64,000 bases of DNA from Kiloniella spongiae. GTDB taxonomy: Bacteria; Pseudomonadota; Alphaproteobacteria; Kiloniellales; Kiloniellaceae. The stretch lies in assembly GCF_001026905.1 (NCBI RefSeq), contig NZ_LAQL01000007.1:1-64000 (forward strand), read 5' to 3'. Each line of letters starts with the position of its first letter. The first letter of the stretch is position 1. Below, piece by piece: positions 861-25,522 of this stretch. Both the position numbers and the translations under genes were made by a program. Below the pieces are notes generated by a model, which was given only the letters and a program-made list of their open reading frames with translations, was not told the DNA's origin and did not search any database.

Positions 861-1892
861 TTACGCAATTTCTTGGGTAGCTCTGAATTGCTCGGGAGTT
901 AAGTTAAATTTCTTATGGAATGCTCGGTAAAAACTGGGAGGGTGTTCATAACCTGTCAAATAGGCAATTTCATTGATGGTTAATTCTGTACCCAATAAAT
1001 ATTGTCGTGCTAATGTCATTCGTGATTCATAGAGAACCTTTCTGAATGAAGTTCCGTTTTTTGATAAACGTCGTTGAAAAGTATGAATTGAAAGTCCAAA
1101 ATGTTCCGCGGTTTCTTCTATATTTGAAAAAGCAATGTTTGCAGTTTGAAGAAGATATAATCGGACATCATCAACCAAATGATTGGCTTCATGCATAAAT
1201 GGTAAAGTTGCAATACTATGCTCAAAGCACAGTTTTGAAACAGAGCTACTGGCAGATGAAAAAGGGTGTGCGTTGAATTCAATCGGGAAAGAGAATGATG
1301 TGCGCAGTTGATTAAATAAAATTTTTCCAGGGAAAATATTTTCATAAAATTCAGTATGATCAGGCTTCGCATAAGATAAGCGAATTTCAACGTCTTGACA
1401 ATTTTGAATTTGAGGAAGTCTTTGGCATGTCCATTTCCAAGTACTGGTTAGCCATTCTTCTGATAATCCTTTTGATTGAAACTCATTGAGTTTCAGTGAC
1501 TGCAAGATGATCTCAACTCTGTCATTGAGTATTTTCCTTTCTGTTTTGATGGGGTGAAAGAGAAGAGCAGAAGAAAGCTCCCAGGATCTTTGTAAATTAG
1601 TCGTGCTAACAAGTGCATACCCTAATAACCCTAAATCAAAAATATTGTAGCTGTGTCCAAGATGTAGAAAAAAGCCACGGTTCCAGCAAGATGGGGCAAC
1701 AAGTAATAAAGTTTTATAATATGTATCAATATTAACCTTTTGCTTTTCTTTGACGATGGCGTTTTTGTTGTAGCCCATAGGTGCCAGTATTTTATCAATA
1801 GAAATATCTGGACAGCTTTTGTCCCACTGGCTGAAGAATCGCATAAAAAACTGATACGCCATTGTCTGATTTTCAACAAATTGGGTTTTCAT
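861..1892 (-). CDS. AraC-family transcriptional regulator
   Basis: 343 residues. The last hundred residues form the two-helix-turn-helix AraC DNA-binding domain: IEETAEHFGLSIHTFQRRL is the first HTH, and INEIAYLTGYEHPPSFYRAFHKKF followed by LTPEQFRA is the second. The N-terminal part (about residues 15-200) matches the layout of the arabinose-binding-like domain found in the OruR/ArgR-like branch of the family (PF12625 type). It is transcribed divergently from the TRAP operon at 2106 and probably regulates that operon. An inverted repeat lies between them at 1923-1946. The gene is AT-rich compared with gabTD (18 G+C in the 60 bases at 1321-1380). The effector is unknown. Confidence 0.9.
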   Translation of the reverse strand: MKTQFVENQTMAYQFFMRFFSQWDKSCPDISIDKILAPMGYNKNAIVKEKQKVNIDTYYKTLLLVAPSCWNRGFFLHLGHSYNIFDLGLLGYALVSTTNLQRSWELSSALLFHPIKTERKILNDRVEIILQSLKLNEFQSKGLSEEWLTSTWKWTCQRLPQIQNCQDVEIRLSYAKPDHTEFYENIFPGKILFNQLRTSFSFPIEFNAHPFSSASSSVSKLCFEHSIATLPFMHEANHLVDDVRLYLLQTANIAFSNIEETAEHFGLSIHTFQRRLSKNGTSFRKVLYESRMTLARQYLLGTELTINEIAYLTGYEHPPSFYRAFHKKFNLTPEQFRATQEIA

Positions 1893-2105: not shown

Positions 2106-3158
2106 ATGTCTGAGGAAGTAAAGTTGTTTGCTAAATGGGCTAAGAAATTATCTTGTGTTGTAATTGGTGCAAGTGTGTTTGCCTCGGCACTAACGATAGG
2201 TGCTGATACATTTGCGGCAGACGAAAAAATCTATCGCTGGAAAATGCAACGTTATACTGGAACAGAAAGTCAAAAAATTTTCAGGAATTTTGCCAAAGAC
2301 GTGAAAGAGGCGAGCAATGGTCGTTTGAGAATTACGACATTTGGCGGCGGTGAATTGGTTCCTAATGATCAGTTATTGAAAGCAACGGGTTCTGGCGTTC
2401 TCCAAATGTCATATGGGTATGGTGCTTATTGGAGTGGGAGTGTCGATCTTGCTCGTATCGAATCTGGCCTTCCACTTGCTTGGACAACGCTGGATGAAGC
2501 AAAAGACCTTTGGTTCAATAAAGGCATGAACAACCTTCTTGTCGAAGCTTATGGCGAGCATGGCGTGCGCTACATGTCTCCATCTTTTGGTGGTGATTAT
2601 GATCTATTGTCAAAAGAGCCAATTGAATCACTTGATCATATGAAGAAAATTAAAATTCGGGCCACATCAAACGTAGCGGTAATTCTTGAAAAATTTGATG
2701 TACCGACAGTGTATTTGCCGCCTGAAGAGTTCTATACATCAATGAGTACAAACTCTATTAGTGGTATTATTTATGGTAGTGCTTATGACTATGAGCAGCT
2801 TAAGCTGCAAGAAACAGCCAAGCATTATACAAAGCTTTCCCTTTTGACACCTGGATTTGTCGACAACATTCTGGTCAATCAGGAAGCTTGGGATGAATTA
2901 CCAAAAGATCTACAGGAAATTTTGGACACCAGCGTTAAGAAATTGGCGGAAGATCACCATAATTGGCTGATTGACGGAGCTAAAAAAACACTGAGTGATA
3001 ATGTTTTTGAAGTTCATACTTTGCAAACAAGTGATGTTACCAAGCTTACTGATGCTGCCCAGGACCTATGGAATGAAGAAGCAAAGCGTTCTGTACGTAA
3101 TGAAGCTGCAATCAATATGATCAAAGATTTAGCAGGTTCTAACGGACGCCTAAAATGA
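2106..3158 (+). CDS. TRAP transporter solute-binding protein (DctP family)
   Basis: 350 residues. It is the periplasmic binding protein of a tripartite ATP-independent periplasmic transporter. The N-terminus has a positively charged segment, a hydrophobic stretch (CVVIGASVFASALTIG) and a small-residue cleavage zone near residue 37. KIKIRATSN at about residues 179-187 holds the conserved ligand-binding arginine of the family. The ATG at 2106 is the longest start. A TTG at 2124 is preceded by GAGGAAG at better spacing and would give the cleaner signal peptide MFAKWAKKL. The stop overlaps the next gene by 4 bases (ATGA). The substrate is unknown; the downstream genes suggest an amide- or guanidino-containing compound. 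Confidence 0.92.
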   Translation: MSEEVKLFAKWAKKLSCVVIGASVFASALTIGADTFAADEKIYRWKMQRYTGTESQKIFRNFAKDVKEASNGRLRITTFGGGELVPNDQLLKATGSGVLQMSYGYGAYWSGSVDLARIESGLPLAWTTLDEAKDLWFNKGMNNLLVEAYGEHGVRYMSPSFGGDYDLLSKEPIESLDHMKKIKIRATSNVAVILEKFDVPTVYLPPEEFYTSMSTNSISGIIYGSAYDYEQLKLQETAKHYTKLSLLTPGFVDNILVNQEAWDELPKDLQEILDTSVKKLAEDHHNWLIDGAKKTLSDNVFEVHTLQTSDVTKLTDAAQDLWNEEAKRSVRNEAAINMIKDLAGSNGRLK

Positions 3159-3688
3159 CTTGGATGAAAATCCTTCTGCAACGACAATTGGAATTAGGCG
3201 ATCGATTTGGTCGCCTAATTTCCTGGGTCAATTTATTGATTATTGCCGTTCTTCTGTATGAGGTCTGCATGCGCTATTTGTTCAGCGCTCCGACAAATTG
3301 GGCTCATGAAATGTCAACAATGTTGTTTGGCGGGTATTGCCTAGCTGCAGGGGTTTATACGCAAGCATATGATAAACATGTAAAAATTGACGTGATTTAT
3401 CATCTGTTTGGCGAAAGAAGCCGTGCCTTTTTAGATGTTATCTCAGGCCTGTTTATCCTTGCCGGTTTTGCCTTTTTATTTATGATTTCGTATCAGTATG
3501 CGCTGGACTCCTGGATACTTTCTGAAGTGTCATCAAAAAGTTCTTGGCGTCCTATACTGTTTCCTATCAAAGCTGTTATTCCTTTAACAGTTTTTCTATT
3601 GATACTTAACCAGCTTATTTACTTTCTGCGTGACGTTATGATCGCTCTCAGAATGATTGATCGTGAAGGGGAGATTCTTCATGATTGA
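3155..3688 (+). CDS. TRAP transporter small permease (DctQ family)
   Basis: 177 residues with four hydrophobic segments (about 20-40, 50-70, 90-112, 135-157), the usual architecture of the small TRAP membrane subunit. The first loop contains the family-like motif NWAHEMSTMLFGGYCLAAGVY. It starts inside the end of the binding-protein gene and its stop overlaps the start of the large permease, so the three subunits are translationally coupled. Confidence 0.92.
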   Translation: MTWMKILLQRQLELGDRFGRLISWVNLLIIAVLLYEVCMRYLFSAPTNWAHEMSTMLFGGYCLAAGVYTQAYDKHVKIDVIYHLFGERSRAFLDVISGLFILAGFAFLFMISYQYALDSWILSEVSSKSSWRPILFPIKAVIPLTVFLLILNQLIYFLRDVMIALRMIDREGEILHD

Positions 3689-5003
3689 TATGGATCCTCT
3701 TCTCGTTACCGCTATCATGTTTGGCTCAATGCTGTTTCTCATGATTATTGGTACTCCGCTTGCTTGGGCGTTACTCATAGTTGGTACCGGTTCAGCCATT
3801 AATCTTTGGGGCTGGGACTCTTTGGATATGGTGGTGATTAGCACCTTCGGGGTGATGAATACCTTTATCCTGGTTGCTTTACCCATGTTCATTTTTATGG
3901 GGCTTGTTTTACAGCGTTCTGGAATTACCGATGATTTATTCGGTATGGTTTATAAGGTGATGGGGGGTGTCAAAGGGGGGCTTGGCGCCGGTACAATTCT
4001 TATTTGTGCTGTAATTGCTGCGATGGCAGGTGTAACTGCAGCTGCAACGGTCAGTCTTGGCCTTATTGCATTACCTGCAATGTTAAAACGGGGATATGAT
4101 AAGAGACTTGTTACGGGTGCTATCATGGCTGGTGGAGCGTTAGGATTTCTGATCCCACCAAGTATTACGATGATCCTCTACGCTTTTTTAACACGAGAAT
4201 CAATTGGTAAGCTCTTTGCCGCCGGTGTAATGCCAGGTCTTATGCTGGCTGCAATATATATCATATATATTCTTGTCGTTTGCCGGGTTAAGCCATCTCT
4301 CGGTCCTGCAATCGCGGAAGAAGAGCGTGTGGATTGGCGTGGCAAGATTGCCTCTCTTCGTTCTTTAATTCTGCCGGGCATTATTATTACGACTGTTCTT
4401 GTTTTCACAATGAAGGGTGTTACGTCCCCAACAGAAGCCTCTGTAATTGGAGCGGTGGGGGCGGTTCTTAGTGCTGCGGTTAATCGGACACTTAGTTTGC
4501 AAGTGTTGAGAGGGGCGTTGCAGGAAACAGCGCGTATCATGGGGATGTTGATGTGGATCATGATCGGTGCTGTTATCTTTAGCAAAATCTATATTGGCTT
4601 GGGAGCAGGCCAAATTATTGCTGAAAGCATTATTGATGGTGATTTAAGTCCGAATCTTGTGCTTCTGATGATTATTTTGACCTATTTCCTGCTTGGAATG
4701 TTTCTGGATGATTCAGCCATCTTGTTCATTACAGTTCCATTATTTGTTCCGATTATCAATGAACTTGGCTATGACCCTGTCTGGTTTGGGATTGTCTTTA
4801 TTCTGGCAATGCAAACGGCTTATCTGACCCCACCCTTTGGTTATAATCTGTTCTATATGAGATCAGTGGCTCCACCTGAAATTAGAACGGTTGATATCTA
4901 TCATTCAGTTACACCATTTATCCTTTTGCAGATGGTTGGACTGGCTCTGGTTGTGTTCTTTCCTCAGATCGCATTATGGCTACCTCAAGTGCTGTTTAAC
5001 TAG
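3681..5003 (+). CDS. TRAP transporter large permease (DctM family)
   Basis: 440 residues, highly hydrophobic, with about a dozen membrane segments. Family-typical features include GGALGFLIPPSITMILYAFLT, the SPTEASVIGAVGA block and TPPFGYNLFYMR near the C-terminus. I chose ATG at 3681 because AAGGGGAG sits 9 bases upstream and the start overlaps the dctQ stop; a TTG at 3657 in the same frame has no ribosome binding site. It is the substrate/sodium symport channel of this TRAP system. Confidence 0.93.
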   Translation: MIDMDPLLVTAIMFGSMLFLMIIGTPLAWALLIVGTGSAINLWGWDSLDMVVISTFGVMNTFILVALPMFIFMGLVLQRSGITDDLFGMVYKVMGGVKGGLGAGTILICAVIAAMAGVTAAATVSLGLIALPAMLKRGYDKRLVTGAIMAGGALGFLIPPSITMILYAFLTRESIGKLFAAGVMPGLMLAAIYIIYILVVCRVKPSLGPAIAEEERVDWRGKIASLRSLILPGIIITTVLVFTMKGVTSPTEASVIGAVGAVLSAAVNRTLSLQVLRGALQETARIMGMLMWIMIGAVIFSKIYIGLGAGQIIAESIIDGDLSPNLVLLMIILTYFLLGMFLDDSAILFITVPLFVPIINELGYDPVWFGIVFILAMQTAYLTPPFGYNLFYMRSVAPPEIRTVDIYHSVTPFILLQMVGLALVVFFPQIALWLPQVLFN

Positions 5004-5006
5004 AAT

Positions 5007-5025
5007 GGAGGAGGTGATCTCCTCC
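5007..5025 (+). terminator. Hairpin after TRAP genes
   Basis: A 7-bp perfect stem (GGAGGAG/CTCCTCC) with a 5-base loop lies just after the dctM stop. No T-run follows, so this may be an mRNA-stabilising or processing hairpin and not a true terminator. The next gene starts 70 bases on. Confidence 0.4.
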
Positions 5026-5094
5026 TTCAGCAACAAACGACAAAATAAGTGGCCTTAAATAGTACTCTCGCCAGACCTTACAAAGGAGAAGTAG

Positions 5095-6828
5095 ATGAAG
5101 AGTATGCAAGACTTTGAGTCTTCAAACTGCACATTGACAGCAGGAAAAGCAGACCTTTTTTTAAAAAACGGACGCATTTACACCGTAAATTCAATGCAAC
5201 CATGGGCTGATTGTGTTGCTATTCGAAATGGGCGATTTATCGGCGTCGGCAGTTTTGAAAAACTCTGTGAACTGATTACTTCAAACACGCATATTATCGA
5301 CCTTCATGGTCAATTTGTTATGCCTGGAATTTATGACATGCATACACATCCAGATTTGGCATTGGCACCATCTTATGCTGGATATCTGGATATAGGTTGC
5401 GAAGATCCTTCACCGGATAATGTTAAAGATGCGATCCTAAATTATTCGAAGAAAAATACTGAAACCCCTTGGGTCTATGGGCAATCATTTGTCCGCTATA
5501 CTTTCAAAAAAGAAGGGCTTGTGCCAGATCGATATTGGCTTGATAGTTTTATAAGTGACCGTCCCGTTGCCATTCATGATCGTTCATGGGGGTGCATGTT
5601 GGTAAATAGTAAAGCCCTAGAGCTTGCTGGGATTACATCAAAAACGAAAGACCCCGGTAATGGCTACATCGAACGAGACCCGCTAAGCGGAGAGCCCACG
5701 GGCATTTTGGTCGATGGTGCCTATTCTCTGATTTATCACGTAATGCCCCCGACACCGGCACCTGCATTAGAACGTGCATATCGTGATGGCTTGAATTATC
5801 AGGCAAGTCGCGGTGTCGTCGGGACAAAATATCTTCATGTTTGTGAATATCGATTGAATGCTTTGAAGGCCGTTGATGATGAAGGTCAAATGACGGCTCG
5901 CGTCGAAGCGGCGATTAGTTGGCAGGATGATATTTTTCCAGTTAAAAGGCGTTGGGAGCTGCTTGCTGGGGAGCGTCATTATTACAGAAGCAATCGCTTA
6001 AATGCGAATGCTGTTAAGTTCCACTTTGATGGGACACATGAGTCACGTTCGTCGTATCTTTCAACATCCTGGCCAGGTGAAAGCAAGTGGCGCGGCGGAT
6101 TGAACCTTACGCCAGAACATATAACGGATATGGTTGTGGATATGGACCGCAAAGGCATCCGTGTTATCGCGCATTGTACAGGTGATGGTGCCTCAGATAT
6201 CTTTTTGGATGCGGTTGCAGAAGCGCGCCGTAAAAATGGCAATAACGATGTGCGTCATCAATGTGCCCACTCAACCAATTTACTTGATGAAAACTTGCCT
6301 CGATTTGAAAATTTGAATGTGACGGCTGAGTTTTCACCAGTCGGATGGTATCCATCAGCATTTGCAACCGCGCGGCAAAATGTGGGTGAGGAACGTTGGC
6401 CTCGGATGTATAATTTTAAAGGCGTACTTGACGCTGGTGGTATTGCTGTAATGGGAACAGATTGGCCTGTTTCACATATCAATCCATGGGTTGGCTTTGA
6501 GGCCATGATCACACGACAAAATCCGATAACTGATTCTGTTGAAAATTTTCCAGGGCAACCCGTCAGTTTGGAAGAAGCGATTCAGGTTATGACCTTGAAT
6601 GGTGCGTGTGCCATGGATTTAGAAGATCAAGCGGGATCAATTGTACTTGGAAAATCAGCAGACTTTATTGTTCTGGAAAACAATCCTTTTGAAATGGACG
6701 TCAGAGGCAGTCTCCACAAGATGAATGTCGAGATGACCTTTGTTGAAGGTCAATGTGCGTGGGATGTATTGGGGCGTATGGACGGGACGGACAATGAAGC
6801 GGTTTGGAAAGAAAGACCAAATTTCTAG
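5095..6828 (+). CDS. Metal-dependent amidohydrolase, YtcJ-type
   Basis: 577 residues, amidohydrolase superfamily (Amidohydro_3 / YtcJ-like). Recognisable elements in order: N-terminal beta-sandwich segment (LFLKNGRIYTVNSMQPWADCVAIRNGRF), MPGIYDMHTHPD with the HxH metal pair near residue 83, VKFHFDGTHESR with a lysine where the bridging carboxylated lysine would be, IAHCTGDGASD and RHQCAHS with further histidines, and GTDWPVS near residue 455 with the catalytic aspartate. The C-terminal EDQAGSIVLGKSADFIVL closes the sandwich. AAGGAGAAG precedes the ATG. There is no signal peptide, so it is cytoplasmic. Members hydrolyse amides, formamides or carbamates; the substrate here is unknown. Confidence 0.88.
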   Translation: MKSMQDFESSNCTLTAGKADLFLKNGRIYTVNSMQPWADCVAIRNGRFIGVGSFEKLCELITSNTHIIDLHGQFVMPGIYDMHTHPDLALAPSYAGYLDIGCEDPSPDNVKDAILNYSKKNTETPWVYGQSFVRYTFKKEGLVPDRYWLDSFISDRPVAIHDRSWGCMLVNSKALELAGITSKTKDPGNGYIERDPLSGEPTGILVDGAYSLIYHVMPPTPAPALERAYRDGLNYQASRGVVGTKYLHVCEYRLNALKAVDDEGQMTARVEAAISWQDDIFPVKRRWELLAGERHYYRSNRLNANAVKFHFDGTHESRSSYLSTSWPGESKWRGGLNLTPEHITDMVVDMDRKGIRVIAHCTGDGASDIFLDAVAEARRKNGNNDVRHQCAHSTNLLDENLPRFENLNVTAEFSPVGWYPSAFATARQNVGEERWPRMYNFKGVLDAGGIAVMGTDWPVSHINPWVGFEAMITRQNPITDSVENFPGQPVSLEEAIQVMTLNGACAMDLEDQAGSIVLGKSADFIVLENNPFEMDVRGSLHKMNVEMTFVEGQCAWDVLGRMDGTDNEAVWKERPNF

Positions 6829-6867
6829 TCACTCAAAAATAGAAATGCGGATAAAGCGAAGTCAAGG

Positions 6868-7827
6868 ATGATGCAGAAAATTAACAAAATTCCTGTTTGT
6901 GTTATTTCCGGTTTTTTAGGAGCAGGAAAGACAACTCTATTAAATAATATTCTTAATGGGGAGCACGGTCTTAACATAACTGTGCTTGTAAATGATTTCG
7001 GCGCTATTGATATTGATAGTCAGCTTTTGTCTAAGCAGGATGGCAATAGCATCAGTCTGAAGAATGGATGTATTTGCTGTAGTCTTCAAAATGATTTGGT
7101 TAATGAATTAACGCAGTTGCTTAACCAACCTGATGGGCCACCAGAGTATATCATTATTGAATGTAGTGGTGTCTCAGACCCTGGCAAAATCATCAATTCA
7201 TTGCGCTACCCTCAGCTACGTGAATATTTTCAAATTGACACGGTTCTTACTCTGATTGATGCCAAAATGATTAACTCTCTCGAAGGAGAGGTGAAGTACT
7301 TGGCAACCGCACAGTTGGATGTGGCTGACATTATCATTTTGAATAAAACAGATATTGTCTCACAAGATGAAATTGAAAAGATATATCACGACTGGCTGTA
7401 TCCAGCTGCTCGGGTACTTGAGACGACGTATGCAAAAGTTCCAATGGATATTCTCTTCTCACGAGACCATGTTGAAAATGCGTCCATAGAGACAGAAAAA
7501 ATGTTGGAAACAAAGCATATTCACACGCATTTGTTTCAATCGTGGAACTGGAGCAGCACAGCGCCTGTTTCTATTGAAAAGCTACGTTTGGCAATTACGG
7601 ATTTGCCCAGAGAAACTTACCGAGCGAAAGGTATTTTCTATTCCGATCAATATCCACGCAAGCGCATTATTCTACAAATGGTCGGCAGCCGGCAGGAATG
7701 GTCTGTTGAAGAAAGTAATACTGATAAATGCGTTAGTGAATTGGTGATGATTTCTACAGATGGTGAGATTAACCAATTGCAGGTAGAACGAACTCTGAAT
7801 AATTGCGTTCTATCTCCTACATTTTAA
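6868..7827 (+). CDS. CobW/P47K-family (G3E) GTPase, putative metallochaperone
   Basis: 319 residues. GFLGAGKTTLLNNIL near residue 13 is the Walker A/P-loop. CICCSLQNDL near residue 70 carries the CxCC metal-binding motif that defines the COG0523 group. IIIECSGVSDP is the Walker B/switch region and LNKTDIV is the guanine-specificity NKxD motif. The C-terminal CobW domain is present (YRAKGIFY...). G3E GTPases deliver or insert metals (Zn, Ni, Co) into enzymes. Being sandwiched between metal-dependent hydrolases suggests that it matures one of them, most likely the ureohydrolase or the amidohydrolase; that is inference. ATG at 6871 is an equally good start. Confidence 0.9.
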   Translation: MMQKINKIPVCVISGFLGAGKTTLLNNILNGEHGLNITVLVNDFGAIDIDSQLLSKQDGNSISLKNGCICCSLQNDLVNELTQLLNQPDGPPEYIIIECSGVSDPGKIINSLRYPQLREYFQIDTVLTLIDAKMINSLEGEVKYLATAQLDVADIIILNKTDIVSQDEIEKIYHDWLYPAARVLETTYAKVPMDILFSRDHVENASIETEKMLETKHIHTHLFQSWNWSSTAPVSIEKLRLAITDLPRETYRAKGIFYSDQYPRKRIILQMVGSRQEWSVEESNTDKCVSELVMISTDGEINQLQVERTLNNCVLSPTF

Positions 7828-7840
7828 AAGGAATAATACT

Positions 7841-9439
7841 GTGAAAGATGCAAAAAGAGATGCATTGTCATGGGTAGAGGAAAACTTGCCTCGTCTTTCA
7901 GATTGGAATCAAACAATCTTTGATTACGGCGAAACAGCATGGCGGGAATATAAATCCTGCGCTTGGTATGTCGAACGCTTAAAAGCAGAAGGTTTTGATG
8001 TAGAGGAAGGTAGCGGAGGTATGCCGACCGCATTCTGTGCTGTTTGGAGAAATGGTGATGGTCCGACAATTGGAAGTTACGCAGAATATGATGCGGTACC
8101 TGGTAATTGTCAGGCTGCGGACACTGTTCAACGTCCTCGTGACAATTTAAGCGAACATGCTGGCGGGCATACAGATCCTCATTCAGCATTGGGTATTAGT
8201 GCTCTTGGTGGCCTGCTTGCTGCAAAAGAGACTATGCAACGTCATAACATACAAGGAACTTTGAAGTTTTTTGGCGAGCCTGCTGAAAAAGTACGTGGAT
8301 CAAAACCGATCCATGCGGCAAAGGGGTATTATGATGATCTGGATGCGGCCATCAGCTTCCATCCTTTTTATATGTTGCCTCTCTCCAATACGACGCGTTG
8401 GAATACCCATTGTGGTGCGGCTTATGCGGTTATTTATACCTTTGAATGTAATGACCCGGAAAACTGGCTATTCCAAAGTGGTGAAGCAGCCTCTCCAATC
8501 CCTGCATCTCACGCTTCAGCACGTGCACCCGGAGCGAATGACGCCTTGATGCAAATGTATATGACATCAAAGATGCTTAAAGCGTCCATGGTATCGGCAG
8601 GTACTGGTTGGTCCATGAATGAGTGCATTCTGACGGCGGGTCAAGCAACTGCAGATAACCTTCCAGCTCAGATCGCACAAATTCAATATATGATGCGGGT
8701 GCCGGATCTTGAAATGGCTGAAACGATTATGCGTGTCTTGGATAAAAACGCAGAGTCCGCAGTCAATAATTCTCATTGCAGTTTCAAAAAAGATTGGGTT
8801 TGTAAATCTCGCCCCGGGCTGCCTAACCATGTCATGGCACAATTGACGTATGACAATTTGGAACGTGTTGGCGCGCCAATCTTTAACAAAGGTGAAGCCG
8901 TTACAAAGGCACAGGAAATTCAACGCAATCTTGGCATTGAAGTGATGGAACAGCCTTTTCTGTCTGAATGCGAGAAACTGATTTCCCCTCAAGATGCTGA
9001 ACATGAGTTACGCAAACAGCTTCCCGAATGGCAGAAACATTTTACTTCGGATGACTATACGGAATTCTGTTGGCATGCACCGACCGTGCGCTTGTATGTT
9101 GCTCGTCCTATGTTACGAGCACCTGATAATGGTTTCAAATATCCTGCATGGGTAATGAATGCATTGGGGGGAATTCGTGAAACCATTGATCCAATGATTG
9201 AATGCGCGAGCAAGACGATTGGCGCAACTATTGTTGACCTGTTTTGCCGACCTGAAATGTTGGAAAAAGCACAAAAGGAATTCAATGAGCGCACGGGTGG
9301 TATCGGTGGTGAAAACTGGATACCTCCTCAATGTGACTATGACTCTCCCCATCATTTTCGCTGGCCTGAATATGTGGAGACAGACCGGGGGTATGAATGG
9401 TGGATACCAACGTTAGAAAAAGCAAGCTTGCGAAACTAA
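7841..9439 (+). CDS. M20-family amidohydrolase, AbgB-like
   Basis: 532 residues from a GTG start with AAAAGGA 9 bases upstream. It resembles the AbgB branch of the M20 peptidases/amidohydrolases: the GSYAEYDAVPGN block near residue 85 and EHAGGHTDPHSALGISALGG near 107-126 stand where AbgB has its metal-binding GHACGH segment, and FFGEPAEKVRGSKP contains the catalytic/metal glutamate region. It is longer than E. coli AbgB (about 480 residues). Such enzymes cleave amide bonds of N-acyl amino acids such as p-aminobenzoyl-glutamate. It sits 13 bases after the G3E GTPase gene and 12 before the ureohydrolase, so it is co-transcribed. The exact substrate cannot be read from sequence. Confidence 0.85.
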   Translation: MKDAKRDALSWVEENLPRLSDWNQTIFDYGETAWREYKSCAWYVERLKAEGFDVEEGSGGMPTAFCAVWRNGDGPTIGSYAEYDAVPGNCQAADTVQRPRDNLSEHAGGHTDPHSALGISALGGLLAAKETMQRHNIQGTLKFFGEPAEKVRGSKPIHAAKGYYDDLDAAISFHPFYMLPLSNTTRWNTHCGAAYAVIYTFECNDPENWLFQSGEAASPIPASHASARAPGANDALMQMYMTSKMLKASMVSAGTGWSMNECILTAGQATADNLPAQIAQIQYMMRVPDLEMAETIMRVLDKNAESAVNNSHCSFKKDWVCKSRPGLPNHVMAQLTYDNLERVGAPIFNKGEAVTKAQEIQRNLGIEVMEQPFLSECEKLISPQDAEHELRKQLPEWQKHFTSDDYTEFCWHAPTVRLYVARPMLRAPDNGFKYPAWVMNALGGIRETIDPMIECASKTIGATIVDLFCRPEMLEKAQKEFNERTGGIGGENWIPPQCDYDSPHHFRWPEYVETDRGYEWWIPTLEKASLRN

Positions 9440-9451
9440 GGTAAAAATAAA

Positions 9452-10534
9452 ATGGCTAAAATTGAAAAAGAACGTTTGGAAAAATACCGCAAGCTTTCTG
9501 AGAAAGGCTTGTGGGATATTAATGATGACGGTTTTCGAGATTTTTATGCTCGTGCAATAGGCGAAGGTGTAGAGCTTGTTAGCAACAATTTCAATATATT
9601 AGGAATGTTCCGGGCTCCACATAGAAAAAACCTCATAGACGTGGATATGGCGTTTGTTGGAATTCCCTTGGATCTTGGTGTGCCCAATCCTCGTCCCGGT
9701 ACCCGAAAAGGCCCCGAAGCCGTTCGCTACTGGTCACTTGATCGAAACCTTGTTCATTATGCAACTAAAGTATGCCCATTTGATCTGTGTTCAGTGATTG
9801 ACTGGGGAGACATAGAGTTTACGCAAGATGCCTATAATTTGGAGGCCTGCCTCAATGAAATCTATTGCGTATATAGAGAATTCAAGGAAAAAGATATTGT
9901 CCCCCTGACAATAGGGGGAGAGCACACATGCACATATCCTGTTCTCAAAGCTTTATCAAAAGACGGTGAGGAACCATTAGGTCTTATTCATCTCGATGCT
10001 CATGGAGACACCAGCTGCAATTTCGGGGGAACGCGTATTAGCGACGCAACATTGTTTCAAGTTGCAACTGTTGATGGCTTGATTGATCCGGAACGAACCA
10101 TTCAAATCGGGTTAAGGGGACGTGGCGTACCACGCTGTGATTTCTCACATGATAGTGGTATGCGTGTCGTTCTTGCCGATGAATTGCAGGAAAAAGGTGT
10201 TTCGTATGTGTTGGAAGAAATTCGCAGGGTCGTCGGTGATAAACCTTGTTATCTTTCAGTTGATACGGATGTTTTAGATTGCTCTGTCATGCCGGGAACA
10301 ACACTACCAGAACCTTTTGGTCTAACTGGTCGTGAAGTTCGTGATGTGATTAGAGGCACGCGAGGACTTGACGTGGTTGGGGCTGATTTAATGGAGCTAA
10401 GCCCGACCTATGATCCAACGGGTATGTCGGCATGTTTAGCCTCTGGTCTCGCGTTTGAATTGTTCTGCTTGCTTGCTGAAGCGCGAAGTAAAAGCAAGTC
10501 AAAAAATGAACTGACGCGTTGGAAAATTGCCTAA
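9452..10534 (+). CDS. Ureohydrolase (arginase/agmatinase/guanidino-acid hydrolase family)
   Basis: 360 residues. All metal-ligand motifs of the family are present: GGEHTCTYP (His ligand), LIHLDAHGDT (Asp-His-Asp) and SVDTDVLDCSVMPGT (Asp-x-Asp), with LPEPFGLTGRE following. Family members hydrolyse a guanidino group to an amine plus urea using two Mn or Ni ions. About 60 residues precede the ureohydrolase core, more than in typical agmatinases (about 305-320 residues); guanidine hydrolases of the GdmH type also carry N-terminal extensions. With gabT and gabD following, 4-guanidinobutyrate to 4-aminobutyrate is the simplest reading, but agmatine, guanidinopropionate or guanidine cannot be excluded. 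Confidence 0.88.
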   Translation: MAKIEKERLEKYRKLSEKGLWDINDDGFRDFYARAIGEGVELVSNNFNILGMFRAPHRKNLIDVDMAFVGIPLDLGVPNPRPGTRKGPEAVRYWSLDRNLVHYATKVCPFDLCSVIDWGDIEFTQDAYNLEACLNEIYCVYREFKEKDIVPLTIGGEHTCTYPVLKALSKDGEEPLGLIHLDAHGDTSCNFGGTRISDATLFQVATVDGLIDPERTIQIGLRGRGVPRCDFSHDSGMRVVLADELQEKGVSYVLEEIRRVVGDKPCYLSVDTDVLDCSVMPGTTLPEPFGLTGREVRDVIRGTRGLDVVGADLMELSPTYDPTGMSACLASGLAFELFCLLAEARSKSKSKNELTRWKIA

Positions 10535-10551
10535 TTCACATTGCTTTACAA

Positions 10552-10568
10552 CGTTCTTTTCAAGAACG
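10552..10568 (+). terminator. Hairpin between ureohydrolase and gabT
   Basis: CGTTCTT at 10552-10558 pairs with AAGAACG at 10562-10568 around a 3-base loop; TTAAATTTTT follows. It could act as a weak terminator or attenuator separating gabTD from the upstream operon, or as a differential-expression hairpin. Confidence 0.4.
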
Positions 10569-10595
10569 AATTAAATTTTTAAAAGGAAAACCCTA

Positions 10596-11885
10596 ATGGC
10601 AACTAATTCAAACCTTTTGAAGCGCCGCGTTGACGCCATTTCTCGTGGCGTAGGTTTTTTGACAGATTTTTTTGCAGAATATGCGGAAAATTCAGAGATT
10701 TGGGATGTCGAGGGGCGTCGTTTTATCGACTTTGGTTCTGGGATTGGCGTGTGTAATACGGGGCACCGCCACCCTAAAGTCATGGCAGCCATTGAAAAAC
10801 AATTGTCAGCCTTTACTCATACCTGCCATCAGGTCACACCTTATGAGAACTATATTGAGCTGGCAGAAAAACTGAATGCAGCAATGCCGGGTTCTTCGAA
10901 AAAGAAAACGGCTTTTGTGTCAACAGGTGCAGAAGCCGTTGAAAACGCAATTAAAATTGCACGCGCCCATACCGGGCGCCCTGCGGTGATTTCCTGTGCA
11001 GGTGGGTTTCACGGTCGCACCTTCATGGGCATGAGCCTTACTGGCAAAGTCGTTCCTTACAAAGTGGATTTCGGTTCGATGATGAATGATGTTTTCCATT
11101 TTCCGTTCCCCAATGACGTTCATGGCATTTCCATTGACGAGTCAATTGCGGGTTTGGAACGTTTGTTTAAAGCTGACGTCAGTGCCAACCGTGTGGCTGC
11201 GATTATTTTTGAACCAACCCAAGGTGAGGGTGGTTTCTACGTGGCGCCGAAAGAATGGGTTAAGCGCATTCGCGCCATCTGTGATGAGCATGGCATTGTG
11301 ATGATTGCTGATGAAGTTCAATCCGGTTTCGGTCGTACAGGTAAATTCTTTGCCATGGAACATTACGGCGTCGAAGTCGACCTGATGACATCGGCAAAAG
11401 GTCTTGGCGGTGGTATGCCGATCTCAGCTGTGATCGGTAAAGCGGATATTATGGATGCGCCGAACCCGGGTGGTCTTGGTGGCACTTACGCAGGGAATGC
11501 GGTTGCTGTGGCTGCAGCCAATGCGGTGTGTGACATCATGTCTGAAGAGGCGTTCCACACGCGCACAACTGAATTGGGTGTGAAACTTAAAGACATGCTC
11601 AATGGTTTGAAATCTGATGTACCTCAAATTGCTGATGTACGCGGTCAAGGTCTTATGGTTGCCGTTGAGTTTATCGATGGCAAAACACCACGTGCAGATA
11701 TGGTTGCCTCTGTCGTGAGTTATGCCAAAGAAAACGGCTTAATTTTGTTGTCTTGCGGTATTTACGGAAACTGTGTGCGTTTCTTGCCGCCGTTAACCAT
11801 TCAGGATGATATTTTTGATGAAGCACTCGGCATTATTTCCAATGGCATCAAACAAGCTTCAAATACTGTGCAAGCAGCAGAATAA
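10596..11885 (+). CDS. gabT: 4-aminobutyrate aminotransferase
   Basis: 429 residues, class III PLP aminotransferase. AFVSTGAEAVENAIKIARA binds the PLP phosphate, IADEVQSGFGRTG contains the aspartate that pairs with the pyridine nitrogen, and SAKGLGGGMP carries the PLP lysine at about residue 267, close to Lys268 of E. coli GabT. It moves the amino group of 4-aminobutyrate to 2-oxoglutarate, giving succinate semialdehyde and glutamate. AAAAGGAAAACCCTA precedes the ATG. gabD begins 13 bases after its stop, so the pair is an operon. G+C content is higher here (33 of 60 bases at 11221-11280) than in the genes upstream, which may mean that gabTD is native and the upstream genes were added. Confidence 0.92.
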   Translation: MATNSNLLKRRVDAISRGVGFLTDFFAEYAENSEIWDVEGRRFIDFGSGIGVCNTGHRHPKVMAAIEKQLSAFTHTCHQVTPYENYIELAEKLNAAMPGSSKKKTAFVSTGAEAVENAIKIARAHTGRPAVISCAGGFHGRTFMGMSLTGKVVPYKVDFGSMMNDVFHFPFPNDVHGISIDESIAGLERLFKADVSANRVAAIIFEPTQGEGGFYVAPKEWVKRIRAICDEHGIVMIADEVQSGFGRTGKFFAMEHYGVEVDLMTSAKGLGGGMPISAVIGKADIMDAPNPGGLGGTYAGNAVAVAAANAVCDIMSEEAFHTRTTELGVKLKDMLNGLKSDVPQIADVRGQGLMVAVEFIDGKTPRADMVASVVSYAKENGLILLSCGIYGNCVRFLPPLTIQDDIFDEALGIISNGIKQASNTVQAAE

Positions 11886-11898
11886 GAGAGAGTGTGTG

Positions 11899-13353
11899 AT
11901 GCTTAAACTTACAAATGAAAACCTGCTGAAAAGCCAATGCTACATTGATGGTGAATGGATTGATGCTGACAATGCAGAAACCATGGATGTGCTTAACCCG
12001 GCCACAGGTGAGGTTATCACCAGTGTACCCAAAATGGGCCAAGCTGAAACAGAACGCGCCATCACTGCGGCAAACGCTGTGCAAAAAAACTGGGCGAAAC
12101 GTCCGGCCAAGGAACGTGCAAATATTCTGCGCAACTGGTTCAACCTGATTATGGCGAATCAGGAAGATCTTGCGCAAATCATCACCGCTGAAATGGGAAA
12201 GCCTTTGGCGGAATCCCGGGGCGAGGTCGCTTATGGTGCGAGTTATATTGAATGGTATGCTGAAGAAGCAAAACGCGTGTATGGCGATACCATCCCCGCA
12301 CCGGGTGATGATAAACGCATCATCGTGATGAAACAGCCCATCGGGGTTATTGCGTCGATCACGCCATGGAATTTCCCCAATGCGATGATTACACGTAAAA
12401 TTGCTCCTGCCTTGGCGGTCGGCTGTGCCACGGTAATGAAACCTGCCGAACAAACGCCTTTGTCTGCCCTTGCTTTATGTGTCCTGGCTGAAGAAGCCGG
12501 CCTCCCCAAAGGCTTGGTCAACTGTGTCGTGGGTGACCCGGTGGCGATTGGTGGTGAGATGACATCAAACGATATTATCCGCAAACTGACCTTTACAGGC
12601 TCCACCGAAGTCGGACGCCTGTTGATGCGTCAATCGGCACAGCATATCAAGAAACTCGGTTTGGAATTGGGCGGAAACGCACCGTTTATCGTCTTTGATG
12701 ATGCCGATATTGATGCTGCGGTTGAAGGTGCAATGATTTCAAAATATCGAAATTCCGGCCAAACCTGTGTCTGTGCCAATCGCATCTATGTTCAAGAAGG
12801 CGTTTATGACCAATTTGCTGAAAAACTCGCTGCCAAAGTCGCCGATCTTAAAATCGGTAACGGTGCTGAAGACGATGTTGTTCAAGGTCCGCTGATCGAT
12901 GACAAGGCGGTTGCTAAGGTTGAAGCTCACCTCACAGATGCGGTTTCCAAAGGTGCTGAAATTGTTTGTGGCGGACAACGTCATGAATTGGGGCGTACGT
13001 TCTTTGAACCAACCATCGTTAAGAACGTCACCAAAGAAATGAAAGTGGCACGAGAAGAAACTTTTGGCCCCATCGCGCCTCTGTTCCGATTTAAAGATGA
13101 TGCCGATGTGATCGCTCAAGCCAATGATACTGAATACGGTTTGGCTTCTTATTTTTATGCCAAAGACATGAGCCGTGTCTTCCGTGTGGCAGAAGAGTTG
13201 GAATACGGAATGGTTGGCGTGAATACAGGTATTCTGTCCAATGAGGTCGCGCCCTTTGGTGGTATCAAGCAATCGGGACTGGGCCGCGAAGGCTCTAAGT
13301 TCGGTCTCGATGACTACCTTGAGATCAAATACGTTTTGCTCTCTGAGATTTAA
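11899..13353 (+). CDS. gabD: Succinate-semialdehyde dehydrogenase
   Basis: 484 residues, aldehyde dehydrogenase superfamily. LELGGNAPFIVFDDADID holds the general-base glutamate, and NSGQTCVCANR carries the catalytic cysteine near residue 290, followed by a second cysteine two residues later as in GabD enzymes. EETFGPIAPLFRF and PFGGIKQSGLGREGS are also typical of GabD. It oxidises succinate semialdehyde to succinate with NAD(P)+. ATG at 11899 was chosen because the first residues (MLKLTNENLLKSQCYIDGEW) fit the family; a longer frame from 11806 overlaps gabT. It completes the route from 4-aminobutyrate to the TCA cycle. Confidence 0.92.
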   Translation: MLKLTNENLLKSQCYIDGEWIDADNAETMDVLNPATGEVITSVPKMGQAETERAITAANAVQKNWAKRPAKERANILRNWFNLIMANQEDLAQIITAEMGKPLAESRGEVAYGASYIEWYAEEAKRVYGDTIPAPGDDKRIIVMKQPIGVIASITPWNFPNAMITRKIAPALAVGCATVMKPAEQTPLSALALCVLAEEAGLPKGLVNCVVGDPVAIGGEMTSNDIIRKLTFTGSTEVGRLLMRQSAQHIKKLGLELGGNAPFIVFDDADIDAAVEGAMISKYRNSGQTCVCANRIYVQEGVYDQFAEKLAAKVADLKIGNGAEDDVVQGPLIDDKAVAKVEAHLTDAVSKGAEIVCGGQRHELGRTFFEPTIVKNVTKEMKVAREETFGPIAPLFRFKDDADVIAQANDTEYGLASYFYAKDMSRVFRVAEELEYGMVGVNTGILSNEVAPFGGIKQSGLGREGSKFGLDDYLEIKYVLLSEI

Positions 13354-13858
13354 GTTTTTCCTTGGCCTGCTTTCTTTCTGTTGGGGGAGAAAGAGCGGCT
13401 CACAATATGAGATAAAAAGTGCTTGAGCGTTTTTCGGTGGTGAAGGAGGTTGCTATAAAAGCATTGAGTTTTTTCAATGTCTCTGTTGGCTTGCCTAAGT
13501 TGTGTACCGATATTATCTTTCCAATGCATGCTGCTCGGACAGCAACGAGTAGCCGGCAATATGCGCAATTGAAACTAGTTACTAATTTGAGTCTTCAAAA
13601 AGTCTGTCTAAAGTGTTGCGTGCCCCCGCAACCAACGAAATCAAAACACCCCTTACCAGAAATGGTAAGGGGTGTTTTGCGTCCGGGATAAAATATATGA
13701 AAAGGATCGAAAAGAGTGGTACTTGGAAATTGAGGGTTATTTAGTTTGGTTCCTTGAGAAAACAATGGGAAATTTGGAACGGTTTACTGATAAAGTAAAA
13801 TCAACTAGAAATAATTAAACTGAGTTACTAAATATCCTTAAGTTTTTGAAATTGGGCA
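13354..13858. other. Long noncoding gap between gabD and the XRE regulator
   Basis: 505 bases with no convincing gene. It contains a CTTTCT/AGAAAG inverted pair just after gabD, the strong terminator at 13643-13678, and AT-rich sequence before 13859 that probably holds the promoter of the next gene. A 90-codon frame at 13419-13691 runs through the terminator and looks spurious. Confidence 0.5.
13643..13678. terminator. Strong bidirectional intrinsic terminator
   Basis: A perfect 15-bp stem (AAAACACCCCTTACC at 13643-13657 and its exact complement at 13664-13678) with a 6-base loop. The A-run and T-run flanks make it work in either direction. It lies nearly 300 bases past the gabD stop. Confidence 0.85.
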
Positions 13859-14825: not shown

Positions 14826-17273
14826 TCAAGTACGCAGGCGTTCGTTTGCCGGATCCCAAAGTGGTTCGTCTTTCTGAATCACGGCAGGATATTTCTTACC
14901 GTAAATTTCGACTTCAAGTTCGGTGCCTGGTGCCGCGAAGTTGGAGCGCACGATGCCCAGTGCAATTGATGCGTTTACACGATACCCCCAACCACCTGAG
15001 GTGGTTTCTCCAATGATTTCGCCATCTTTCCAAATACAGGACATGTAGGGTGCATCTGCCTCACCTGCGTCGATAATCAAAGTGACAAAGGATTTTTTAA
15101 CTCCTTGCTGCTTTTCGTTTTGGATTGCTGCTTTGCCTGGGAAATTCTGTGATTTGTCGAGTTTGACAAAACGTTCTAGCCCACCTTCAAGTAAGGAGTA
15201 GTCAGTTGACAGATCTCCTTTCCATGCACGATAGCCTTTTTCCAAACGCATGGAATTCAGCGCATACATGCCAAAAGGCTTCGCTCCACCATCCAGAATG
15301 GCCTCGTATATTTCAGGCATATCTTCGTTCAGGGCGTGGATTTCCCAGCCCAGTTCACCAGCGAAGGAAACGCGGATTAAGTGTACTGGTTTGCCTGTGA
15401 TAGCCGCAAACTGATGAGTTAACCACCCCAGAGAAAGATCAGCATCGCTCAGATTTGACAGGATCTGGCGTGAGTTTGGACCTGTTACGATGAGGGTATC
15501 GCGTGTGGTGGTCACGTCTTCAACGGTGACGCTTGCTGGCATTGCCTGGATGAGAATATCACGATCATGCCACTGTGCTGTCGCGGCGGTGATCATAATG
15601 AATTCATTCTCATCCAGACGGATGCATGACATTTCAGTCAGTATCCGGCCTTGAGTATTCGGGATATAGACCAAGTTGATCCTGCCGATTTTTGGGAGGC
15701 CACCGGCTATTAGGCCTCGTAGGGCCTCAGCTGCTCCTTCGCCCCTAACCTCGAACCTGGAGAAACCAGGTAAATCCAATACACCGCAGTTATCACGCAC
15801 GTTTTCTACTTCTTCCCTGATGCGTTGCTGCCAGGGTCCTGAACGGTTCCAGGTATGGGTACTCTCTTCAGAGGTATCGTCACCCGGTTTGGCAAACCAG
15901 TTGGCTCGTTCCCAACCGTTATAAGCACCCATCTGTCCGCCTAGTTCCTTAACTCTACTGTGTACGGGGGAGAGTTTCTTATCACGTGCTGCGGGCCATT
16001 CGTGGTGGGGGAAGTGCATGGCATATTCATTGCCATAGACCTCAAGCCCTTTCTTGTTGCAATAATCCTGATCGGTGTAGTCGGTGTAACGACGCGGATC
16101 GACAGCCCACATGTCCCATTCTGTTGCACCGTCGATAATCCATTCGGCCATAACTTTGCCTGCGCCGCCGCCCTGAGCAATGCCGAAAGTAAAGACACAG
16201 GCTTCGAAGGCATTTTCGACACCAGGCATAGGGCCTATCAGGGGCAATCCGTCTGGGGCATAGGGGATCGGGCCGTTAATGACACTTTGGATGCCTGAGG
16301 ATGCCATGAGGGGAACGCGTTCCATAGCATCAGTTACGATGTCTTCAATGCGGTCCAAATCATCGGACCACAGTTGGAAAGAAAAGTCATCGGGCATCGG
16401 GTCGTCTTTGGTTGTCCAGTGTGCTTTGCAGTTCGGTTCGTATGGACCTAAGTTATAGCCGTTCTTTTCCTGCCTCAGGTAATAAGATACATCTACATCA
16501 CGGATCAGTGGTAATTTGCCTCCATGCTCGTTTGACCATGCTTCAATTTCGGGAATTTGTTCTGTCAGTAAATACTGATGGGACATGACCATCATCGGAA
16601 CGGTACGTCCCCCGTACGGTTTGAACCACTCACCAACTCGTTGTGCGTAATAACCAGCAGCATTGACCACGTAATCGCACTCTATATCGCCTTTTTCGGT
16701 GTGAACGATCCAGGTTTTGTCTTCCTTTTGGGTTACATCAGTAGCAGGACAGAAGCGAATGATTTTCTGCCCCATATCGCGTGCGCCCTTTGCCAGAGCC
16801 TGAGTGACCTGCGCCGGGTCAATATCGCCATCAGAGGGATCCCAAAGAACCCCTTCGAGGCCGTGGGTTTCCAAGAAAGGATAGCGTTCCTTGGCTTGTT
16901 CTGGAGTCCATATCTCCATTTCGATCCCCTGGTAGTGACCCATGGACATCGCGCGTTGGAATTCTTCCATTCGCTCCTTACTGTGTGCCAGACGGATCGA
17001 ACCAGTCTGATGGTAGTTCATAGGGTAGTCGACTTCTTCGCCAAGACAGGAATACAGCTCAGTCGAATAGCGTTGCATGTTCATGATCGCCCAAGATGTG
17101 GAGAAAGTTGGTACATTGCCCGCTGCGTGCCATGTTGACCCTGCAGTTAGTTCATTTTTTTCGAGCAGAACACAATCGTTCCAGCCTTTCTTGCCCAGAT
17201 GATAGAGAGTAGAGGCGCCTATGATGCCACCGCCAATAATGACCACTTGAGCTTTGGTTGGAAAATTAGACAT
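14826..17273 (-). CDS. FAD-dependent dimethylglycine/sarcosine dehydrogenase with GcvT domains
   Basis: 815 residues. The N-terminal half is a DAO-type flavoprotein: VVIIGGGIIGASTLYHLG is the Rossmann FAD motif (about residues 10-27), and TAGSTWHAAG at 43-52 carries the histidine that covalently binds FAD in mammalian dimethylglycine dehydrogenase. From about residue 430 the protein continues into GcvT/aminomethyltransferase folate-binding domains (LDLPGFSRFEVRG..., LRLEKGYRAWKGDL). The reaction is oxidative N-demethylation of dimethylglycine or sarcosine, with the methyl passed to tetrahydrofolate. I chose ATG 17273 because GGAGAA lies 5 bases upstream and the FAD motif then starts at the usual place; a frame start at 17321 is also open. 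Confidence 0.9.
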   Translation of the reverse strand: MSNFPTKAQVVIIGGGIIGASTLYHLGKKGWNDCVLLEKNELTAGSTWHAAGNVPTFSTSWAIMNMQRYSTELYSCLGEEVDYPMNYHQTGSIRLAHSKERMEEFQRAMSMGHYQGIEMEIWTPEQAKERYPFLETHGLEGVLWDPSDGDIDPAQVTQALAKGARDMGQKIIRFCPATDVTQKEDKTWIVHTEKGDIECDYVVNAAGYYAQRVGEWFKPYGGRTVPMMVMSHQYLLTEQIPEIEAWSNEHGGKLPLIRDVDVSYYLRQEKNGYNLGPYEPNCKAHWTTKDDPMPDDFSFQLWSDDLDRIEDIVTDAMERVPLMASSGIQSVINGPIPYAPDGLPLIGPMPGVENAFEACVFTFGIAQGGGAGKVMAEWIIDGATEWDMWAVDPRRYTDYTDQDYCNKKGLEVYGNEYAMHFPHHEWPAARDKKLSPVHSRVKELGGQMGAYNGWERANWFAKPGDDTSEESTHTWNRSGPWQQRIREEVENVRDNCGVLDLPGFSRFEVRGEGAAEALRGLIAGGLPKIGRINLVYIPNTQGRILTEMSCIRLDENEFIMITAATAQWHDRDILIQAMPASVTVEDVTTTRDTLIVTGPNSRQILSNLSDADLSLGWLTHQFAAITGKPVHLIRVSFAGELGWEIHALNEDMPEIYEAILDGGAKPFGMYALNSMRLEKGYRAWKGDLSTDYSLLEGGLERFVKLDKSQNFPGKAAIQNEKQQGVKKSFVTLIIDAGEADAPYMSCIWKDGEIIGETTSGGWGYRVNASIALGIVRSNFAAPGTELEVEIYGKKYPAVIQKDEPLWDPANERLRT

Positions 17274-17392
17274 GTTTTCTCCGTAAATCAGTTCTGTTGC
17301 CGCACACAGTTCGCGGTGCAAGTTCTTCTGTTCAATATGTTTTCAAAATGAACGTTTAAAATGGTTTTTCAAGAAAGCTAACTACAGCAAAA

Positions 17393-18523: not shown

Positions 18524-18534
18524 GGCGTTTTCCC

Positions 18535-23166: not shown

Positions 23167-23169
23167 TGC

Positions 23170-24099: not shown

Positions 24100-24100
24100 T

Positions 24101-25487: not shown

Positions 25488-25522
25488 TGGCGGTTTCCAT
25501 AAATACGTAATAATAATGATAA

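Follow-up and report, generated by a model that had tools for sequence, protein, structure and literature searches.

Which compound is taken up and degraded by the products of a ten-gene locus at the start of a Kiloniella spongiae contig? The locus was analysed within a stretch of 64,000 nucleotides (assembly GCF_001026905.1, contig NZ_LAQL01000007.1, positions 1 to 64,000 of the forward strand; hereafter the window), in which a divergent AraC-family regulator, a TRAP transporter, a YtcJ-type amidohydrolase, a G3E GTPase, an M20 hydrolase, a ureohydrolase, GabT and GabD are encoded between positions 861 and 13353. The original prediction, made from the letters alone, gave the gene content, order and coordinates correctly; its interpretation, a route from 4-guanidinobutyrate to succinate fed by an imported amide or conjugate of a guanidino acid, is partly supported by the data below. 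The catabolic module is real and recurrent. We give a probability of about 0.5 to the reading that the operon takes up an arginine-derived guanidino compound and degrades it to succinate, where we infer both the substrate and the order in which YtcJ and M20 act. Nine of the ten genes share the + strand with intergenic gaps of at most 91 nucleotides, which makes a single operon plausible. The features are:

861..1892, - strand, AraC-family regulator (Arabinose_bd and HTH_18 domains), divergent from the operon
2106..3158, + strand, TRAP solute-binding protein DctP (PF03480, 106.8 bits)
3155..3688, + strand, TRAP small permease DctQ (PF04290, 74.2 bits)
3657..5003, + strand, TRAP large permease DctM (PF06808, 276 bits; TIGR00786 above cut-off)
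5095..6828, + strand, YtcJ-type amidohydrolase (Amidohydro_3, PF07969, 253 bits)
6868..7827, + strand, G3E/COG0523 GTPase (cobW, PF02492, 166 bits; CobW_C, PF07683, 43 bits; GCICC motif)
7841..9439, + strand, M20 hydrolase from a distinct family, its metal site altered (D112, K150; TIGR01891 below cut-off)
9452..10534, + strand, divergent ureohydrolase of the arginase/agmatinase superfamily (PF00491, 233.1 bits, cut-off 22)
10596..11885, + strand, GabT, 4-aminobutyrate transaminase (TIGR00700, 570.8 bits, cut-off 506.65)
11896..13353, + strand, GabD, succinate-semialdehyde dehydrogenase (TIGR01780, 719.6 bits, cut-off 646.35)
13642..13679, no strand assigned, stem-loop of 17 pairs, a candidate site for the end of operon transcription (from a consensus scan only, which reported it on the - strand)

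The recurrence of this locus was followed with the M20 protein as bait, chosen because its family is sharply bounded: 13 of the 398 genomes of the phylum sample (the window's included) match it at the limit of 1e-60, all with E < 1e-268. A scan of a collection of 84,980 species gave 406 relatives; the best 80 named loci were kept and, with the window, form a set of 81 that is rich in Mesorhizobium (17) and Phyllobacterium (9). Neighbours were clustered from simple open reading frame (ORF) calling, so an apparent absence close to a contig end is uncertain, as with L075, which is 1.2 kb away from where its stretch ends. Near-identical named loci served to infer the class and phylum of sampled genomes designated by G numbers. 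YtcJ is found near M20 in 22 loci, G3E in 21 and the large TRAP permease DctM in 12, the last two always together with YtcJ. YtcJ, G3E and M20 thereby share 21 of the 81 loci, which belong to Curvivirga, Halomonas, Billgrantia, Pseudomonas, Pseudaminobacter, Mesorhizobium, Sinorhizobium and the window. The co-recurrence of YtcJ, G3E, M20 and TRAP in other genera exceeds chance, and the block originally described from a single genome is in this part found elsewhere; non-recurrence, which would have refuted the original proposal, does not hold for these four components. The closest locus is that of Curvivirga (L045; AraC 66%, YtcJ 79%, G3E 61% and M20 82% identical), in whose examined stretch no match to the ureohydrolase, GabTD or TRAP was found. 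The AraC relatives of Curvivirga and of Halomonas L100 (39%) are also divergent from YtcJ-G3E, and relatives of DctM at 64-74% identity are present in 11 Halomonas/Billgrantia loci.

The link of this module to arginine is provided by AruI, a 2-ketoarginine (5-guanidino-2-oxopentanoate) decarboxylase. Its gene lies near M20 in 24 of the 81 loci and in 18 of the 22 with YtcJ, the four others being the window, L045, L100 and L075 (near a contig end). The AruI model NF005712 was matched at E ≤ 1e-110 by 24 of the 25 members of the neighbour cluster (first member 775 bits, cut-off 500); the remaining one matches acetolactate synthase instead and is taken to be the thiamine diphosphate enzyme gene of L105, an outlier with 28% identity, and for this reason 24 and not 25 loci were counted. 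The association extends to whole genomes: AruI scores over cut-off in 14 of the 15 other genomes with M20 versus 4 of 18 without it (Fisher p = 6e-5), the latter being 18 of the 20 listed among 385 negatives and not matched by family. When the window genome is counted the figure is 14 of 16 (p = 2e-4), and by genus it is 8 of 8 versus 4 of 17 (p = 5e-4). The fifteenth M20-bearing genome (G042) has AruI in two adjacent pieces, each below cut-off. The most complete arrangement is found in Billgrantia, with the order ALDH (aldehyde dehydrogenase)-AruI-YtcJ / LysR / M20-TRAP-GbuA-G3E, where the ureohydrolase inside the operon is an ortholog of GbuA (494 bits to PDB 3nio). GbuA at 60% identity or more is found in 5 of 15 M20-bearing and 1 of 18 M20-free genomes (p = 0.07). 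The co-location of M20 and YtcJ with AruI, and in Billgrantia also with GbuA, agrees with the guanidino-compound catabolism proposed from the window alone, and the tie of the predicted module to arginine/guanidino catabolism is well supported.

The role of YtcJ and of its GTPase was approached through the loci in which they are replaced. YtcJ matches the Amidohydro_3 profile above the gathering score, and its residues H83, H85, K308, H360, H388, H392 and D456 are invariant in 12 aligned rows; the HxH motif, the two further His and the Asp are those that we take to be metal ligands. It is probably a metal-dependent hydrolase of guanidino, ureide or amide groups. A match at E ≤ 1e-150 was found in none of the 384 other genomes of the class sample. 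The GTPase has the cobW and CobW_C domains, both likewise above gathering scores, and, in its translation, a GCICC sequence conforming to the CxCC motif of COG0523/G3E metallochaperones. A G3E gene accompanies YtcJ in 21 of its 22 loci and is missing from all 33 loci that carry DDAH1, a member of the dimethylargininase/arginine deiminase superfamily whose Cys and His are conserved (33 rows). Three loci (Pseudaminobacter L076, Mesorhizobium soli L077 and Sinorhizobium medicae L106) have a Pot-type ABC transporter, LysR, M20, YtcJ, G3E and AruI, while the DDAH1 loci, 32 of them with the same Pot-type transporter, lack YtcJ and G3E; YtcJ and DDAH1 occur together in none of the 81 loci. It follows from the co-occurrence that the G3E protein is probably the metal chaperone of YtcJ, the most likely client because G3E departs with YtcJ while M20 remains. 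Enzymes of the dimethylargininase/arginine deiminase superfamily act on guanidino carbons and, since YtcJ is exchanged for one of them, it may act there too. Together these observations suggest that YtcJ acts on a guanidino or ureide group and is served by G3E. Mutual exclusion by many independent events was considered and discarded: the M20 tree needs a single change, so the exchange counts as one replacement and not as repeated evidence. In rhizobia, a dimethylargininase-like hydrolase took the place of YtcJ and G3E once.

A further dimethylargininase-like family is found in five sampled genomes (L181-L184 and L192, from G227, G179, G107, G386 and G147), in a conserved cluster of an amino-acid ABC transporter, DDAH2 and AruI, to which L181 and L183 add TetR and L192 an AruH-like gene. 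It is an apparent arginine-transamination locus with a dimethylargininase-like enzyme.

The exchange raises the possibility of a ureide route, to which we give a limited though real chance. YtcJ would be a metal-dependent deiminase converting a guanidino acid to a ureido acid, a part that in rhizobia would fall to the Cys-dependent DDAH1; M20 would strip the carbamoyl group to leave an amino acid, and the ureohydrolase would act in parallel in a single step, perhaps on a compound of different chain length. The replacement of YtcJ and G3E by DDAH1 in a syntenic locus and the conserved Cys and His of the latter, as in dimethylargininases, are consistent with this. So are the neighbours of M20 on plasmids: Shinella L196 (annotated) has AruI, hydantoinase/carbamoylase, PuuE-like, aminotransferase and class II aldolase genes, the same partners are read from ORFs on pSymA of Sinorhizobium meliloti Rm41 (L193), and Kozakia L197 has an arginine-deiminase-family protein with PuuE-like and carbamoylase genes (the PuuE-like scores, 116 and 96 bits, are far under the model cut-off of 424.6). 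HyuA/HyuB-like proteins, read from sequence beginnings, are near M20 in L048, and six M20- and AruI-bearing genomes of the Mesorhizobium-like genus g39 have no GbuA homolog above 50% identity. Against this route stand the single event on the M20 tree, the relatives of M20, among which carbamoylases rank below peptidases, and the coexistence of GbuA orthologs with M20 in Billgrantia and Rhizobium L116. Absence of GbuA was rejected as proof of a ureide route given its presence in a third of the M20-bearing genomes (5 of 15, see above).

Two other plasmids vary the theme: Roseovarius L194 has M20 with a Pot-type ABC transporter, LysR and a dimethylargininase-family gene, and Arthrobacter L195 has it with YtcJ-like, AruI-like (454 bits, cut-off 500) and succinate-semialdehyde-dehydrogenase-like genes. 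As a separate observation, L048 and three other gammaproteobacterial metagenome-assembled genomes (L050, L051, L053) have a PhzF-like gene beside M20 and, in three of the four, an M19-dipeptidase-like gene; some also carry serine hydroxymethyltransferase, MttB-like and FAD (flavin adenine dinucleotide)/GCV_T genes.

No Pfam family matches the M20 protein at E ≤ 0.001, and it scores 95.9 bits with TIGR01891, the model of AbgB-type M20D proteins, under its cut-off of 153.75. Its AlphaFold2 model (mean predicted local distance difference test 83.7, predicted TM-score 0.87) has the two-domain structure of M20 enzymes, and the nearest solved folds are HmrA (E 4.9e-24, TM-score by target length 0.82) and human PM20D2. 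The latter is named "Xaa-Arg dipeptidase" in the sequence file and reaches only 28 bits with the M20 profile. Where AbgB-type M20D proteins have HxCGHD and PAEE, presumably the metal-ligand sites, the window protein reads GHTDPH and PAEK. A gapless HMMER alignment sets D112 opposite the Cys of HmrA and K150 opposite the second Glu of PAEE; both residues are invariant across 42 aligned orthologs. Comparison with canonical relatives by hhalign also shows Cys and Glu both lost; it would make the first change Cys to Gly, an assignment set aside in favour of D112, and the two alignments agree that the Cys is gone. The M20 part of the original name "AbgB-like M20 hydrolase" is thus borne out by the fold, while the AbgB part fails on both the model score and the metal ligands. 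The relatives HmrA and Xaa-Arg dipeptidase are compatible with the amide or conjugate proposed originally, but the YtcJ+G3E exchange in rhizobia and the PuuE-like and carbamoylase neighbours suggest hydrolysis of a guanidino or ureide group rather than of a simple amide.

The ureohydrolase keeps the metal-ligand motifs of its superfamily (GGEH, DAHGD and DTDVLD, for GGxH, DAHxD and DxDxxD). It scores below the NCBIfam agmatinase cut-off (151.5 versus 174.3 bits), and its nearest solved relatives are 3-guanidinopropionase (217 bits) and guanidinobutyrase (213 bits), which makes it a probable guanidino-acid amidinohydrolase. With 213 bits to 3nio, versus 494 for the Billgrantia protein, it is not a GbuA ortholog. 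Of the route from 4-guanidinobutyrate to succinate proposed originally, the second half has GabT and GabD, which pass their curated models; the first would fall to this divergent enzyme. No relative at E ≤ 1e-78 was found in the 384 other genomes sampled from the class, none above 45% identity is listed in 58 genomes of the order, family and genus besides the window's own gene, and the 10 plasmid records at E ≤ 1e-60 are all less than 43% identical. A nickel-dependent guanidine or metformin hydrolase was considered and rejected: the scores to these enzymes are far under those to guanidino-acid hydrolases, and G3E tracks YtcJ, not the ureohydrolase. Use of the released urea by urease was rejected for the window genome, which has no urease alpha subunit over cut-off (other urea routes were not searched). 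Ectoine, ergothioneine and creatinine routes were considered and dropped as no operon equivalog above cut-off points to them.

These assignments can be arranged in a pathway to succinate. The TRAP system, whose three components DctP, DctQ and DctM are all present above Pfam gathering scores and whose DctP has DctP-family solute-binding proteins as best solved relatives, would import a carboxylated guanidino compound under control of AraC; TRAP binding proteins are described as carboxylate-restricted in PMC4646407. The start of DctM is probably the ATG at about 3681 rather than position 3657. YtcJ, metallated with the help of G3E, and M20 would then trim the import to a plain guanidino acid, most likely 4-guanidinobutyrate: YtcJ would hydrolyse a modified guanidino/ureide or amide end, and for M20 the relative named Xaa-Arg dipeptidase suggests cleavage of an amide-type bond adjoining the guanidino residue. 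From its family and context the ureohydrolase is expected to release urea, leaving 4-aminobutyrate (GABA). GabT and GabD, whose Aminotran_3 and Aldedh domains are above Pfam gathering scores and which are assigned to the GABA shunt by the models above curated cut-offs, would convert GABA to succinate semialdehyde and succinate.

Several observations weigh against this pathway. Ureohydrolase, GabT and GabD are outside the recurring core: a ureohydrolase is near M20 in 7 of the 81 loci, five of them with YtcJ (four of Billgrantia and the window), and a GabT cluster in three (window, Aestuariivita, Virgibacillus), alongside this YtcJ only in the window. The ureohydrolase is not a regular member of the block in which the original prediction placed it, and the end-route is plausible but rare. 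In favour of the pathway, relatives of GabT and GabD are found less than 10 kb from M20 in Aestuariivita L112 (60% and 66% identical) and in Virgibacillus L097 (44% and 47%), which also has a ureohydrolase. The ureohydrolase of the window is divergent, with ISDATLF in place of the AHGTPF/DHGTMF of its relatives (the alignment rows L027 and L031, wrong-strand translations, were disregarded), so that the His of the catalytic loop is replaced; the corresponding His163 of Escherichia coli agmatinase is described as a proton shuttle in PMC8125230. The activity of M20 may differ from that of the peptidases, because two metal-ligand positions are changed. The best AruI score in the window genome is 262 bits (cut-off 500), so the link seen elsewhere is incomplete here, and the lack of family matching in the M20-free genomes tempers the link itself. 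Only four independent comparisons between YtcJ and AruI are available on the M20 tree, and the association is not significant (sign test, median p 1); part of their local linkage could be due to inheritance, and they were not retained as phylogenetically independent partners. Finally, 26 of the 81 loci have neither YtcJ nor DDAH1 (four of the 26 carry a Firmicutes YtcJ-like gene, cluster 61), and some M20 loci adjoin BCCT transporters, MttB-like methyltransferases, carnitine/betaine-type genes or no informative partner.

The last neighbours, the rarity of ureohydrolase with YtcJ and its divergence could also mean that two unrelated modules were joined by chance, YtcJ-G3E-M20-TRAP acting on another zwitterion (e.g., a quaternary amine) and ureohydrolase-GabTD being a separate polyamine/GABA module. 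We hold this to be very unlikely, in view of AruI being linked to M20 both locally and genome-wide and of GbuA lying inside the Billgrantia operon. The degradation of an arginine-derived guanidino compound remains our preferred reading.

The surroundings of the operon point to a variable segment. Among 58 genomes of the genus, family and order, M20 matches at E ≤ 1e-100 are confined to the window's own and to G039, G042 and G046, which belong to another family. Identity between the window and the congener G007 is 78-85% over 17.5-20.1 kb and 26.7-33.7 kb of the window; no M20 ortholog is found in G007, whose fetched syntenic stretch contains neither the operon nor the FAD/GCV_T gene adjacent to it. 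An insertion-sequence-like transposase fragment, read from the translation only, lies at 274-633, the left edge of the operon region. This fragment, the rarity of M20 and ureohydrolase in relatives and the absence from syntenic G007 indicate that the operon was probably acquired horizontally. Downstream, 14826-17321 (- strand) codes for an FAD oxidoreductase with GCV_T, dimethylglycine/sarcosine-dehydrogenase-like, followed at 17651-19209 by a dimethylargininase/arginine-deiminase-superfamily gene and a BetI-type TetR gene. A pair with 52-54% and 34-36% identity to it lies beside AruI/AruH-like genes in Phyllobacterium, while the pair of G007 shares 92% and 74%. The first gene (17651-18523) was rejected as an operon partner, because the M20-free G007 has it as well. 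The syntenic G007 stretch also lacks a second block (20654-26294), which codes for an aldehyde dehydrogenase and, by eye, a luciferase-like monooxygenase, a flavin-reductase-like protein, an alpha/beta hydrolase, a small protein and GntR; hydrolase and small-protein genes resembling it by eye are found near M20 in L112 (1-4224). Inositol catabolism genes occupy 27540-33180, with IolD at 29314-31161 (974.6 bits, cut-off 715) and the others named by eye.

The dimethylargininase-superfamily gene 4.3 kb downstream of the operon, whose relatives lie beside AruI in other genomes, brings in another candidate substrate, an arginine modified or cyclised in its side chain (e.g., a glycated hydroimidazolone, or a methylated or hydroxylated form). 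AruH, AruI and aldehyde dehydrogenase would shorten the amino-acid end, hydrolases would strip the modified guanidine and the butyrate core would exit as GABA. The alternation of AruH-like, AruI and several ring- or ureide-type hydrolase families around M20 fits this scheme, as does the weak similarity of YtcJ to imidazolonepropionase HutI (43 bits; 60 for the Arthrobacter YtcJ-like protein). These scores are far under the 298-bit cut-off, the window has no AruI, no direct evidence points to any such substrate and the literature on hydroimidazolones gave no bacterial genes among the matches listed; we consider the scheme unlikely. A broader, rather speculative proposal, given slightly more credit but still doubtful, is that the M20-centred module is a widespread undescribed pathway for such arginines (e.g., glycated hydroimidazolone adducts), in which interchangeable hydrolases (YtcJ of two kinds, of which one has its own G3E; a dimethylargininase-like enzyme; or PuuE-like protein with carbamoylase) would unpick the modified guanidine, the non-canonical Asp/Lys M20 would be the shared core, and the window version would bypass AruI and end in a new ureohydrolase subfamily. 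If true, a modified-arginine substrate would open an unexplored nitrogen source.

Three unassigned enzyme groups gain functions that can be tested: the YtcJ subfamily that comes with a G3E chaperone, the M20 family whose metal ligands differ, and the divergent ureohydrolase. The M20 family, which shows a genome-wide link to a gene of arginine transamination, spans at least three phyla (Pseudomonadota, Bacillota and Actinomycetota) and includes members in plant-associated rhizobia and on the symbiosis plasmid pSymA. A description of this gene set was absent from the literature matches listed, in keeping with the original remark that no pathway of this composition was known. The terms "amidohydrolase" and "TRAP" do not occur in the main text of PMC2770081, in which 15 subfamilies of COG0523 are described. 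The literature cautions that the names AruI and ureohydrolase do not fix a substrate.

The arginine transaminase pathway of Pseudomonas runs through AruH, AruI, an aldehyde dehydrogenase, GbuA and GabTD. The proposed pathway is similar to it, and to the arginine transamination network of Sinorhizobium described in PMC7268258, in converging on 4-guanidinobutyrate, GABA and succinate, and Billgrantia holds AruI, aldehyde dehydrogenase and GbuA in its YtcJ-G3E-M20 locus. It differs in that the window genome has no AruI over cut-off while the window has TRAP, YtcJ, G3E and M20; the word "amidohydrolase" is absent from the main text of PMC7268258. GbuA and 3-guanidinopropionase (PDB 3nio and 3nip) belong to the superfamily of the window ureohydrolase and are its nearest solved relatives; the window protein is only 38% identical to Billgrantia GbuA and has an N-terminal extension besides the replaced loop His. 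PM20D2, named Xaa-Arg dipeptidase and also beta-alanyl-lysine dipeptidase, and HmrA share the fold of the window M20 (target-length TM-scores of 0.75 and of as much as 0.83) but are 16-17% identical to it; the window M20 and its orthologs have Asp (Gly in another alignment) at the Cys position and Lys for the second Glu of PAEE in 42 of 42 aligned rows. Operons of the Ni-dependent guanidine hydrolase and metformin hydrolase carry nickel chaperones. They resemble the window in combining a ureohydrolase-superfamily enzyme with a G3E GTPase, and differ from it in that the window ureohydrolase scores 93.6 bits to 7esr and 79 to metformin hydrolase, and that its G3E protein follows YtcJ.

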